Origin: Cyanobacteriota bacterium SRBZ.bins.94.201705 | Lineage (GTDB): Bacteria > Cyanobacteriota > Cyanobacteriia > Cyanobacteriales > Cyanobacteriaceae | Assembly (NCBI GenBank): GCA_030549855.1 | Contig: JAUQQP010000013.1 | Coordinates: 1-34,567, forward strand | DNA length: 34,567 nt | Reading direction: 5' to 3' | Shown here: positions 1,706 through 34,567 of the stretch, piece by piece | How the letters are laid out: every line of letters begins with the position of its first letter | Position numbering within the stretch: position 1 is the first letter of the stretch | The notes under the pieces: generated by a model | Database searches by the model: none | What the model saw: the letters and a program-made list of their open reading frames with translations, nothing else | What the model was told of the DNA's origin: nothing | Translations under genes and position numbers: made by a program

Positions 1706-1748
1706 GAAAAAACAATGTCACCCCCGACAACATCTTATAACAGGGGGT
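1706..1748 (-). terminator. Candidate terminator downstream of tRNA-Arg
   Basis: Read on the minus strand, ACCCCC (1748-1743) can pair with GGGGGT (1725-1720). A run of six T follows (opposite A at 1707-1712). It lies about 85 nt past the tRNA-Arg 3' end and could terminate the tRNA transcript. The 17-nt loop is long for a factor-independent terminator, so confidence is moderate to low. Confidence 0.4.
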
Positions 1749-1787
1749 AATGCTGACAATCTGCTGACAAACTTATACTTGATTTAC
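1736..1787 (-). repeat. tRNA-flanking 52-nt repeat, left copy
   Basis: On the minus strand this block begins 44 nt after the 3' end of tRNA-Arg. It matches the block 44 nt after tRNA-Pro (31755-31806) at 47 of 52 positions with no gap. Its core holds TTTGTCAGCA followed by ATTGTCAGCA, i.e. two direct TTGTCAGCA repeats 11 nt apart. The far end (CCCTGTTATA) runs into a hairpin. It may be an integrase arm-type site of a tRNA-targeting element or a tRNA trailer module. Confidence 0.85.
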
Positions 1788-31636: not shown

Positions 31637-31710
31637 CGGGGCGTAGCGCAGCTTGGTAGCGCACCACTTTGGGGTAGTGGTGGTCGTGGGTTCAAATCCC
31701 GCCGCTCCGA
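31637..31710 (+). tRNA. tRNA-Pro (anticodon GGG)
   Basis: A cloverleaf is clear: acceptor CGGGGCG with CGCTCCG and discriminator A; D arm TAGCGCAGCTTGGTAGCGCA; anticodon stem CCACT/AGTGG with loop TTGGGGT and anticodon GGG for proline; T arm with GGGTTCAAATCCC. No CCA is encoded. It sits behind a perfect consensus promoter. A repeated block and a hairpin follow downstream. Confidence 0.95.
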
Positions 31711-31754
31711 TGGATCCTTATGTCCAATTTTCAACTCTCTTAATCACCCCAACG

Positions 31755-31806
31755 GTAAATCAACTATAGATTTGTCAGCAAATTGTCAGCATTACTCCCT
31801 GTTATA
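31755..31806 (+). repeat. tRNA-flanking 52-nt repeat, right copy
   Basis: Begins 44 nt after the tRNA-Pro 3' end. It is the reverse-oriented partner of 1736-1787 (47/52 identical, no gaps). It holds TTTGTCAGCA (31771-31780) and ATTGTCAGCA (31782-31791). Its last bases form the left arm of a 9-bp hairpin (31797-31818). Confidence 0.9.
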
Positions 31807-31828
31807 GCCATAACAGGGGTATTTTGTC
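31797..31828 (+). terminator. Hairpin after tRNA-Pro
   Basis: CCCTGTTAT (31797-31805) pairs perfectly with ATAACAGGG (31810-31818) over a 4-nt AGCC loop, followed by GTATTTTG. It may act as the tRNA-Pro terminator, though the T-run is short. The left arm is part of the tRNA-flanking repeat. Confidence 0.55.
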
Positions 31829-31869
31829 AAGATGGAATAAAAAAATTTTTTATAGGCAACAGAGAAAAA

Positions 31870-32139
31870 GATACCCCCTGGTAGGGGGTGGGACTTTTTA
31901 GAAAAGAGTCAAAAAATAAAATAAAATTAGTAACTTAGAAAAATAGGGGTATTTGGAGAAATAGTGTTCAGGGGACTGGATGGGAGTTTTTGAGAAGTAG
32001 GCAAAAAATAAAATAAAATCAGTGACTTAGAAAAATAGGGGTATGTAGAGATACCCCCTGGTAGGGGGTGGGACTTTTTAGAAAAGAGTCAAAAAATAAA
32101 ATAAAATTAGTAACTTAGAAAAATAGGGGTATGTAGAAA
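31870..32139. repeat. Three 90-bp tandem repeats
   Basis: Units start at 31870, 31960 and 32050, exactly 90 bp apart. Units 1 and 3 agree over at least their first 83 bases (GATACCCCC to GGGGTAT). Unit 2 is diverged in its first half but shares the AAAAAATAAAATAAAAT and CTTAGAAAAATAGGGGTAT parts. Units 1 and 3 carry a hairpin, ACCCCC-TGGT-AGGGGGT. No coding sense seen. Not a CRISPR: units adjoin without spacers. Confidence 0.9.
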
Positions 32140-32179: not shown

Positions 32180-32670
32180 TCATTTTGTTCCTCCTATCAA
32201 TTTTAGATATATATCAATGGCAGATAAAATTATTTCTTTCCTCTCAGTTTTCTCTAGGTATATGACCCGCAATTGTTCCCCTAGATTCTCTCTTATCAAA
32301 TCTTCTCTGTACTCTTTTAGAAAATCGTGGAGAAAATTCAATAATTTAGTCTCATTCGAGAAATTACCCTTCCATTAGACCCTAAGTATCTCTCTGATTT
32401 ATCTGCTCCAATCTTCCCTCCCCTATAGGTCTTTTGAGAATTTAATATTTTTATTTTTTCTCCTCCAAAAAACTCTTTCAGGATTATTTCCGTCACTTTA
32501 TCTGAACCTGATTTAAATAACTTCTCTAAGTATTCCCTTCCTGGAATTGTTCCTATTTTCAAATTAGGTTTATATATCTCCCCTATTGTTAGTATTCCTT
32601 TTTTCACCTGCAGACAGAATAACTTTTCCAATAGGTCTTGACTTCTTTTGTTTTTCCCTAGATAGATAGT
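32180..32670 (-). pseudogene. Broken accessory reading frame, unknown family
   Basis: Two minus-strand frames join into one protein-like product. The first (32670 to 32338, with possible TTG start at 32631) reads LEKLFCLQVKKGILTIGEIY and ends in TAA-free text up to KSERYLGSNGR. The second (32374-32180) reads NFLHDFLKEYREDLIRENLG and ends IYLKLIGGTK. One extra base in the GGG near 32368-32370 would fuse them. The upstream start is also unclear, since the frame is closed by TAG just before 32670. Composition is very rich in Lys, Glu and Ile, like the gene upstream. I recognise no family. Either a pseudogene or a sequence error. Confidence 0.5.
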
Positions 32671-32704
32671 CTACCCATACAAGGGATTGTTATCATATTT
32701 ACAG

Positions 32705-33349
32705 TTACTTCTCCCTACATAAACCCTTGCCATATAGATAACCCTCCAATTCTGAAACTAGTATTGTTCTTACTCCTGGTAAAAATATTTTTTTATTATT
32801 TACTACTAATATGAATTCTTTCTCTTTGTCCTGGCTTATGAACCAGTACGTTTTTGTTTTTAGATACTGTATCTCTTGACTTCTTCTCCGTCCCCACCCT
32901 CTCTTTACTTCTATGTAGTTGTCTGGGGTTTCTAAATCTAGAATGGACTTTGTTTCTCTTGGGAATTTCGTTAGAGTATAATTTACTTGTGCTTTTATTT
33001 TCCTTGCTTCATAAAATCTCCTCAGTATTCCGTCTCCTGTATACTCTAACTCCCATTGAAATATCTTCCCTTCATACAAGATTTTTTCATTTTAACTAAA
33101 CACACTCTTTTTTATCCCTTCCTCATTCTCTTGTAAAAAACCCATAAACTTATATAAATCCATCCCAAGAGACACTAACATCCTGGCAATTGTATATAAC
33201 ACGAATTCTTTGTCGAATATTATCCACATTATCTTGTCCCTTCTTCTTCTTAATAGTTTTGCTCCCCCTTCTGATAACATTTCTTTCTCTGGTTCTCCTC
33301 TCCAAAAACTCTTATCTACTTCCTTCCAGTACACTTCTCTTCTTTCCAT
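32705..33349 (-). pseudogene. Accessory gene split by one in-frame TAA
   Basis: The frame starts at ATG 33349, with a good ribosome site (AGAGGGG seven bases upstream), and runs 85 codons to TAA at 33092-33094. The same frame then stays open for a further 128 codons to 32705, without a good start of its own (only TTG at 33079). Both halves have the same charged, aromatic composition: DKSFWRGEPEKEML and YTIARMLVSLGMDLYKF before the stop, IFQWELEYTGDGILRRFYEARK and TYWFISQDKEKEFILVV after it. Together this is a 214-codon soluble-looking protein broken by one nonsense codon. Family unknown. Readthrough, a two-gene layout or a pseudogene are all possible. Confidence 0.55.
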
Positions 33350-33805
33350 CTTTATTCCCCTCTTTCTCTTTTTATCTCCCCAACCCTATTGTATAATATT
33401 TTTTCTCTTTTGTCTATCCTACAGGCATTAAAAAAATATTAAATTTTTGGAAGAGACTCTTAACAATCTATTAAGAATTGTGACTATTAAGAAATTATAA
33501 GAAAAACAAAAAAGAGAGGCTTGGATATCAAGCTCATCTTATTGATAATTAAATTATGATAAAAGTACATGGTATAGATTATATGGAAGTGTTATAGGAA
33601 CTTTAGTGTATATCTTTTAAATAATTAAATAAAAAAAATAGTATTTGTGGAGATACTACATGTGAGGCTAAATCAAAGATAAGTAGTGGGATGAAAAGGT
33701 ATGTTTTTCCACTCACTAGTGAGTATCTAGAAGAAAGGGGCTGAAAACCCAATTGTAATCTGTGTAAACAAAATTTGATAAATGGTCCCTAGAGGGGGGG
33801 TGAGA
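33350..33805. other. AT-rich spacer
   Basis: No gene seen. CTATTAAGAA occurs twice, 16 bp apart (33468 and 33484), and a perfect 14-bp palindrome ACTCACTAGTGAGT lies at 33711-33724, upstream of the next plus-strand gene. Both could be regulator sites, but nothing in the sequence tells which. Confidence 0.5.
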
Positions 33806-34030
33806 ATGATAAATAGTGGAGACGTACAAGAAAGGGTTAATAGAATAGAATTACTTGAATTGTTGTGGGCAAGAATACATAATTGTGCTCTGAGAGAATG
33901 TTTTAGATATGGGCAACTAAATAGAGCCATAGAAGAAGCCACTAACCAGAGAGTACAAGAAGAAAACACGAAAAAACAAAATAGTCAATTTCAAGGAGAG
34001 ATTAGACCACAAGACCTATCTACTCCCTAA
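33806..34030 (+). CDS. Small hypothetical helical protein
   Basis: This 74-residue protein is unknown to me. It is charged and probably helical: VQERVNRIELLELLWARIHNCALRECFRYGQLNRAIEEATNQRVQEENTKK reads as two amphipathic helices, followed by a polar tail. No signal peptide or transmembrane segment. I choose ATG 33806, eight bases after AGAGGGGGG. The frame is open to an ATG at 33782, but that would put the ribosome site inside the gene. Such short helical proteins are common among accessory and mobile genes. It converges on the next gene, with a bidirectional-looking hairpin between them. Confidence 0.6.
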   Translation: MINSGDVQERVNRIELLELLWARIHNCALRECFRYGQLNRAIEEATNQRVQEENTKKQNSQFQGEIRPQDLSTP

Positions 34031-34096
34031 CTTACTTCTCTATTCTTTCGATACTCTTAGACAAAAAAAAATATTGTTGGCAGAATAAAATAATTA

Positions 34097-34122
34097 CCCC
34101 CCTACACTATTCGGTAGGGGGG
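34097..34122. terminator. Hairpin between convergent genes
   Basis: CCCCCCTA (34097-34104) pairs with TAGGGGGG (34115-34122) around a 10-nt loop. It lies between the ends of two convergent genes and could serve both, although no long T-run follows on either side. Confidence 0.6.
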
Positions 34123-34168: not shown

Positions 34169-34567
34169 CTATTTTAAATCTTCTGGGTCAAAATGTAACC
34201 CGAAAAGTAATTGGAATATCAGTATAATTAACTGACGGGCTACTGTTTTGGATTCATCAGGAACATTCTTGTAGACTTCTGATATAACTTGCTTAGCGGT
34301 TGCAACATCCACTTTTAGTTCGCCAGACTTGGCTTTAATCATTTTCTTTTTCTTTTCCATTCTCTTTGTCACTTCTGGGTCTTTTTTAAGGTATCTTCCT
34401 TTTGCTACTTCTACTCCGTGTCCCATTTCATTTTCGTAAGTGACTTCATTCTCTGTTGTGATATATTTAATCTCTGCTGCTGCTCTTCTGAATACATGTG
34501 TGCCCCGTATTTCTTCACCTAAATAATCTTTAGACCATTTTGCTAAATTTTTATTCGCTAGGCCTAC
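34169..34567 (-). CDS. Hypothetical protein, 5' end beyond the window
   Basis: The minus-strand frame is open from the last base of the window to TAA at 34169, so at least 132 residues of a longer protein are seen. An internal ATG at 34426 is not the start: the coding sense is unbroken upstream (KWSKDYLGEEIRGTHVFRRAAAEIKY). The protein is Lys/Glu-rich in the middle (TKRMEKKKKMIKAKSGELKVD). A short hydrophobic stretch near its end (QLIILIFQLLFGLHF) could be an amphipathic or membrane-binding helix. I recognise no family. Its place beyond the tRNA-Pro and repeats suggests accessory DNA. The true start and size need the next sequence. Confidence 0.6.
   Translation of the reverse strand, partial: VGLANKNLAKWSKDYLGEEIRGTHVFRRAAAEIKYITTENEVTYENEMGHGVEVAKGRYLKKDPEVTKRMEKKKKMIKAKSGELKVDVATAKQVISEVYKNVPDESKTVARQLIILIFQLLFGLHFDPEDLK

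Follow-up and report, generated by a model that had tools for sequence, protein, structure and literature searches.

Lambda Int is a tyrosine recombinase with an arm-binding domain, and the specificity of arm domains has long been studied in a few phages; phage satellites of the PICI and P4-like kinds carry an integrase together with primase or helicase genes. In PMC8138268 the arm-binding domain is described as a mark of mobile tyrosine recombinases, with a P4 cluster, and for the KplE1 integrase (IntS) integrase sites lying over the integrase promoter are described as going with negative autoregulation, which was predicted for 61.5% of 1273 tRNA-linked cases (PMC2951348). Among cyanobacteria, a tyrosine integrase that is invisible to homology searches has been described from marine picocyanobacteria, near tRNA-Phe or tRNA-Cys, where it was found with protein language models (PMC10187409), and tycheposons are described in PMC10872708 and also mentioned in PMC10187409.

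Here, a 52-nt block found beside two tRNA genes of a cyanobacterial genome is reported, which very probably forms the attL flank (P' arm) of small elements that integrate by recombination at tRNA 3' ends. The window, i.e. the whole stretch of 34,567 nt that was analysed, is the complete contig C23 of a 2.87 Mb assembly in 51 contigs. Its two putative attachment genes, called by ARAGORN and Rfam, are tRNA-Arg(ACG) at 1832-1905 on the minus strand, with the predicted core in its 3' end, and tRNA-Pro(GGG) at 31637-31710 on the plus strand. The blocks (1787-1736, minus strand, and 31755-31806, plus strand) are identical at 47 of 52 positions without gaps, where the chance expectation is about 4e-14 (equal base frequencies, all placements), and each begins 44 nt past the tRNA 3' end. 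The spacer on the tRNA-Arg side (1788-1831, minus) falls in the attL module according to the module profile, and that of the tRNA-Pro attL module lies at 31711-31754 (plus). Each block contains two 9-nt arm-type direct repeats, TTGTCAGCA, 11 nt apart from start to start: at 1770-1762 and 1759-1751 on the minus strand (TTGTCAGCA-ga-TTGTCAGCA, 1751-1770) and at 31772-31780 and 31783-31791 on the plus strand (TTGTCAGCA-aa-TTGTCAGCA, 31772-31791). A hairpin stands directly past the repeats in both cases, terminator-like on the tRNA-Arg side (TTACCCCC...GGGGGTGA, 1718-1750, minus) and of the form CCCTGTTAT-AGCC-ATAACAGGG on the tRNA-Pro side (31797-31818, plus), where TTTGTCAAG, with the core TTGTCAAG, is found at 31823-31831 (plus). 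Conserved genes occupy the DNA between the two blocks, and the gene for the oxidative Mg-protoporphyrin cyclase (AcsF) lies inside the window, pointing to a probable cyanobacterial source. The match between the blocks, their spacing, repeats and hairpins, and the conserved genes between them had all been noticed in an earlier sequence-only reading, and each was reproduced.

That reading had also proposed that the blocks are the ends of tRNA-targeting integrative elements, and integrase-like genes or their remnants are indeed present in the same islands, including those of the window. Outside tRNA-Arg lies the catalytic-domain part of a decayed integrase that reads toward the tRNA with in-frame stops (1127-1441, plus); positions 1193-1444 share 69% identity with the query from contig C22 and contain one TGA and one TAG, and by tblastn 1127-1441 matches the integrases of C11 and C31, and 1202-1441 that of C18. 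The contig begins with a stretch (1-102, minus) identical to C31 1476-1577, which sits just past the C31 integrase and its TTCACCA-type arm repeats; this is one stretch in two contexts, perhaps a strain variant or a second copy. Beyond tRNA-Pro, the element contains an 89-nt direct repeat in three copies (31869-32137, plus), of which one is 74% alike. Two of these repeats contain an inverted CCCCCTGGTAGGGGG motif, and parts of them recur in other islands. Accessory DNA with broken open frames and no convincing family match follows at 32338-33349 (minus), and then a piece of element body (33633-34122, plus) that is 92% identical over 490 bp to C18:1-490, beside the integrase associated with tRNA-Leu(CAG). 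The C-terminal 132 aa of the tRNA-Pro element's own integrase (34172-34567, minus) run off the contig and match residues 391-519 of the C18 integrase at 55% identity (tblastn, E 2.7e-49). The window's integrase fragment, modelled alone, gave a poor fold (pLDDT 45.6), the cargo proteins of relatives gave no meaningful match to the window, and the attR predicted for the tRNA-Pro element is absent from the assembly.

The association with tRNA genes extends across the genome. The exact TTGTCAGCA repeat pair occurs five times, always after a tRNA gene and without a mismatch, at Arg(ACG), Pro(GGG), Leu(CAA), Ser(GCT) and Leu(GAG). With a longer query, additional copies come up downstream of His, Leu(CAG), Thr(CGT), Cys and other tRNA genes. 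Downstream DNA was taken for 42 contexts from 43 tRNA matches, and a period-11 direct repeat (at least 8 of 9 identities, within +35 to +100 of the tRNA) is present in 12 of them, 58-61 nt past the tRNA, as against 0/39 upstream and 1/35 far downstream; every other period from 6 to 20 was found in 0 or 1 contexts in the same zone. A period-18 direct repeat at +200 to +265, i.e. far downstream, occurs in 6/35 contexts and was the one further periodicity to stand out. A module profile, trained on 12 tRNAs picked by their repeat and scored leave-one-out, exceeds 8.5 bits in 22 of the 42 contexts and falls below this cut-off in 20, the best upstream score being 0.7 bits and the best of 210 shuffles 4.8; the cut-off was set after the scores had been seen, between a lowest accepted score of 8.8 and a highest rejected score of 3.9 in this genome. 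Four of the 22 profile matches are out of register (Ser-CGA, Thr-TGT, Thr-GGT and Ser-TGA). tRNA-Ser(CGA) was called on two contig ends (C34:15-102 and C48:212-299) with differing downstream DNA, and the two calls may come from overlapping contigs or from separate genes. TTGTCAAG occurs in the first 160 nt downstream of 13/39 tRNAs and upstream of 0/39. About half of the examined tRNA genes appear to carry an element edge, many of these being decayed scars, and the arm words vary among them (TTGTCAGCA, TTTCGACC, TTGGTACCA, TTCACCA and TTTCTCA): perfect pairs of TTGTCAGCA follow five tRNAs, of TTTCGACC two, of TTTCTCA four and of TTCACCA one, with a single TTGGTACCA at three tRNAs.

The genome has members of the integrase family at about ten places, of which two are weak and six are convergent with a nearby tRNA; four copies have long open frames, one interrupted by a run of N. 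Three detached attR sites were found, in each of which a tRNA 3' end lies beside integrase sequence together with the very repeat word found in the same tRNA's attL, in line with the integrative-element reading. On C22 the order is integrase start, two copies of TGTCAGCA, two inverted TGCTGACA, the 3' end of tRNA-Ser(GCT) and a second left end, which has TTTCGACC repeats. On C18, two to three copies of TTTCGACC and a tRNA-Leu(CAG) 3' end stand beside the integrase, and on C7 one TTGGTACCA and a tRNA-Ser(GGA) 3' end stand beside a decayed integrase. Positions 1089-1350 of L070 (C22) form a tandem junction of attR, tRNA-Ser(GCT) end and the attL of another element with a different word. C31 has an integrase and arms with no adjoining tRNA end seen. 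An intact-looking integrase at C11:66531-68063, 129 nt from tRNA-Glu, shows no arm repeats at its start and may be a copy that was stranded or retained. The attR listing also gave His and Thr ends at the edges of loci, which proved to be cut whole tRNAs and were dropped, and no complete element was seen in this genome because several contigs end beside modules.

The integrases themselves are best described as a divergent, tyrosine recombinase-like family, judging from motifs, context and att structure. In an alignment of 10 proteins the boxes R (YGLRISE), K (KTG), HxxR, GH and Y appear in order in most rows; R285, K348 and R417 are invariant and THxxR, GH and Y are mostly kept, the exceptions being Y for H414 in L175 and L179, Q for the second H in C31, and L173 and L174, which end before the Y. 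The best PDB profile match was an integrase, at E 0.078 and aligned at the right boxes. Tyrosine recombinase family models gave no match in Pfam, in NCBIfam (6 proteins) or in PHROGs (2 proteins), and annotation would miss such elements because their integrase matched no recombinase model in these collections. The arm repeats provide an independent handle, since one can look instead for a repeat of period 11 some 60 nt downstream of a tRNA.

Related elements with both boundaries visible are found in other genera. Of 388 genomes of the class, 11, this one among them, gave matches in a profile search, and 13 loci (of 15 integrase matches) were fetched from nine of the ten others. A tRNA was called in 8/13, and five of these eight have a second copy of the tRNA 3' end at the distal end, so that the elements of relatives, too, are bounded as tRNA-targeting elements were expected to be: 20 bp of tRNA-Pro for an element of about 7.2 kb (L169), 25 bp of Ser for about 7.3 kb (L170), 24 bp of Leu for about 5.9 kb (L172), and 28 bp of Met (L174) and 14 bp of Thr (L179) for elements of about 2 kb. 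In all five the integrase occupies the tRNA-distal end and is oriented toward the tRNA. L178 and L180 have no tRNA-end repeat among the eight loci with tRNA and integrase; L179 and L180, from two genomes, are nearly identical elements and do not count as independent cases. A sixth locus, L171 of genome G008, has an attR that matches 22 nt of tRNA-Ala(CGC), whose own downstream DNA bears the same arm word. At about 9.70-9.86 kb of this locus, past the attR, stands TGTACAGTGCCAAATTAATTGTCATCGATGACAAATTACTGTCATTGTG..., which we take to resemble the end of a Tn7-like or type V-K CAST element. A period-11 repeat (8 or 9 of 9) lies near the start codon of 14/14 integrases, a count made without a control. 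Primase/helicase genes (Prim-Pol, PriCT-2, DUF3987 or VapE-like) are present in L169, L170 and L172, and L171 has a VapE-like piece beside a Tn3-type transposase; L174 and L179 hold little beyond the integrase. No packaging gene was named among the ORFs searched, which were part of the ORFs of at least 100 aa in four islands.

In G008, period-11 repeats at 57-60 nt follow 5/39 tRNAs and precede 0/39, with a best module profile score of 6.6 bits. A search of 8 relatives with the flank of the G008 Ser element, and of 10 with that of the Pro element, showed no empty site, because the Ser flank is partly the attL of another element, which in G010 stands after tRNA-Leu(CAA), and the Pro flank, present in 10/10 relatives, has no tRNA in the fetched loci. 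Matches to the repeat pattern in 3/59 relatives (L006-L009, four places with 3 mismatches each) had no tRNA in the fetched loci and were rejected as chance; the control, the pattern reversed, gave three matches in that search. Relatives of the integrase were not found in genome_contigs or viral_contigs by peptide-pattern scans, an insensitive method, or in plasmids or phages by tblastn with the L172 integrase as the single query.

The competing interpretation offered by the sequence-only reading was a conserved tRNA 3' trailer or terminator module; in its fuller form this would be a host module spread by gene conversion, whose hairpin ends or processes tRNA transcripts. The nearly constant distance between module and tRNA fits this, and the hairpin part of the proposal stood: a hairpin forms right after the repeats in nine of ten tested copies (counted with no shuffle control; the tenth, Arg(TCT), folds otherwise), and that of the Pro(TGG) copy has a paired change (CCTCC/GGAGG). 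However, a trailer predicts no attR copies beside integrase genes, and it is precisely there, and at detached tRNA 3' ends, that the same arm words recur; the words also differ between tRNAs while the two copies agree, and 20 of the 42 contexts lack a module above the cut-off. The same-genus relative G001 also speaks against a trailer, as it has no clear module at 35 tRNAs, with a best profile score of 5.1 bits vs 4.8 for the best shuffle, period-11 repeats at 1/35 vs 2/35 upstream and TTGTCAAG at 0/35. Its Thr(GGT) and Pro(TGG) flanks show a faint in-register likeness to the module and may be old scars. A trailer or terminator origin is thus improbable. With this hairpin in the module, the tRNA transcript may be terminated by the element end, in which case the hairpin would be a feature of the module and not an alternative to it.

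Two further explanations fare worse still. That the block is an ordinary dispersed repeat or MITE lying near tRNAs by chance would accommodate some weaker matches without a close tRNA (L021, L022/L023 and L024), but L022/L023, the C22 copies without a whole tRNA, include an attR/attL junction, all five exact pairs are tRNA-linked, and the 12 contexts with a repeat keep the same register to the tRNA to within a few nt, making this highly improbable. The end of a Tn7-like or type V-K CAST element guided to tRNA genes was first suggested by the distance of about 61 nt to the GTT of the T loop, and both the fixed distance after several tRNAs, given the distance rule of V-K systems, and the short repeated motifs near the end would agree with it. 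Tn7-like and V-K CAST ends begin with TGT, however, and the block does not; the other end carries a tRNA 3'-end copy and a tyrosine recombinase-like gene, which is not expected of a DDE transposon. This candidate was rejected as contradicted by the attR structure, with its tRNA ends and integrase genes, and is almost certainly wrong.

The interpretation as the attL flank of integrative elements builds on direct observation of positions, repeats, attL/attR pairing where both ends are seen, tRNA repeats and integrase homology within the family. The proposed integrase, about 470-520 aa long, is encoded at the tRNA-distal end of the element in the orientation facing the tRNA; its core-binding and catalytic domains would recognise a core of 20-25 bp, the tRNA 3' end, and its N-domain, of about 110 aa, would attach to paired direct repeats spaced by one helical turn (11 nt). 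These arm repeats would lie about 60 nt past the tRNA at attL and just before or over the integrase start codon at attR, and recombination would keep the tRNA intact and duplicate its 3' end at the other end of the element. Each element lineage has arm words of its own, common to attL and attR. Catalysis, arm binding by the N-domain, recombination, excision and autoregulation are the activities predicted from sequence for such a system, and negative autoregulation is plausible by analogy of layout.

The integrases likely have an N-terminal arm-reading domain. For eight elements, the true pairing of attL and attR words scores 63/64, reached by 2 of 40,320 pairings with the true one included, in a test with two post hoc choices: a wider attL range for the Met element, adopted once its repeats had been noticed near +153, and a pairing of the Ala element through its tRNA core. 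The integrases of C18 and C22, which have different words, share 80% identity in the core-binding and 95% in the catalytic domain (99 residues compared) and 45% in the N-domain, and those of L170 and L171, with one word common to both, share 82% in the N-domain and 43% and 51% elsewhere. Across 14 integrase sequences, some truncated, N-domain identity correlates modestly with word identity (Mantel partial rho 0.28, p 0.04; 8-nt arm words hand-typed and aligned at the CA end), and the same correlation is not significant for the seven nearest integrases. These data hint at a modular address, in which the core-binding and catalytic part picks the tRNA and an exchangeable N-domain recognises an arm word which can pass from one lineage to another, although we regard this only as a tentative proposal that may well not hold. 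If true, orthogonal words would let many related elements share a genome without cross-excision and would allow docking at about half of the tRNAs, also with elements in tandem behind the same tRNA.

The number of tRNA genes that bear element scars is unusually high for one small genome, and because the words match at both ends, the specificity of arm domains can be tested in a natural series of 14 integrase sequences. The literature consulted, mostly openly readable papers, contained no account of matched arm words or of so many tRNA genes with such ends per genome. Three elements of about 6-7 kb resemble the PICI and P4-like satellites in combining an integrase with primase/helicase genes, with no capsid, packaging or helper link shown. 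The integrase described in PMC10187409 is likewise cyanobacterial, missed by homology searches, retains key catalytic residues and is found in islands beside tRNAs; by that description, rather than by sequence, it differs in its typical use of tRNA-Phe and tRNA-Cys, whereas many tRNAs are used here. Tycheposons, compared in the same way, are also tRNA-bounded elements with a tyrosine recombinase that use several tRNAs, but are described as 4-200 kb in size at seven tRNA genes in Prochlorococcus (PMC10872708), whereas the five bounded cases here are about 2-7 kb. The elements also resemble those of the arm-binding tyrosine recombinases of tRNA-targeting phages and ICEs, in which the tRNA 3' end is the core, the element end lies beside the tRNA, arm-type sites stand some tens of nt off, and the integrase lies by an att site with arms that can overlap its promoter or start. 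Unlike those systems, the elements here match none of the family models tried, the integrase stands at the tRNA-distal att site and reads toward the tRNA, the arm words differ between copies of one genome, and about half of that genome's tRNA contexts bear the module.
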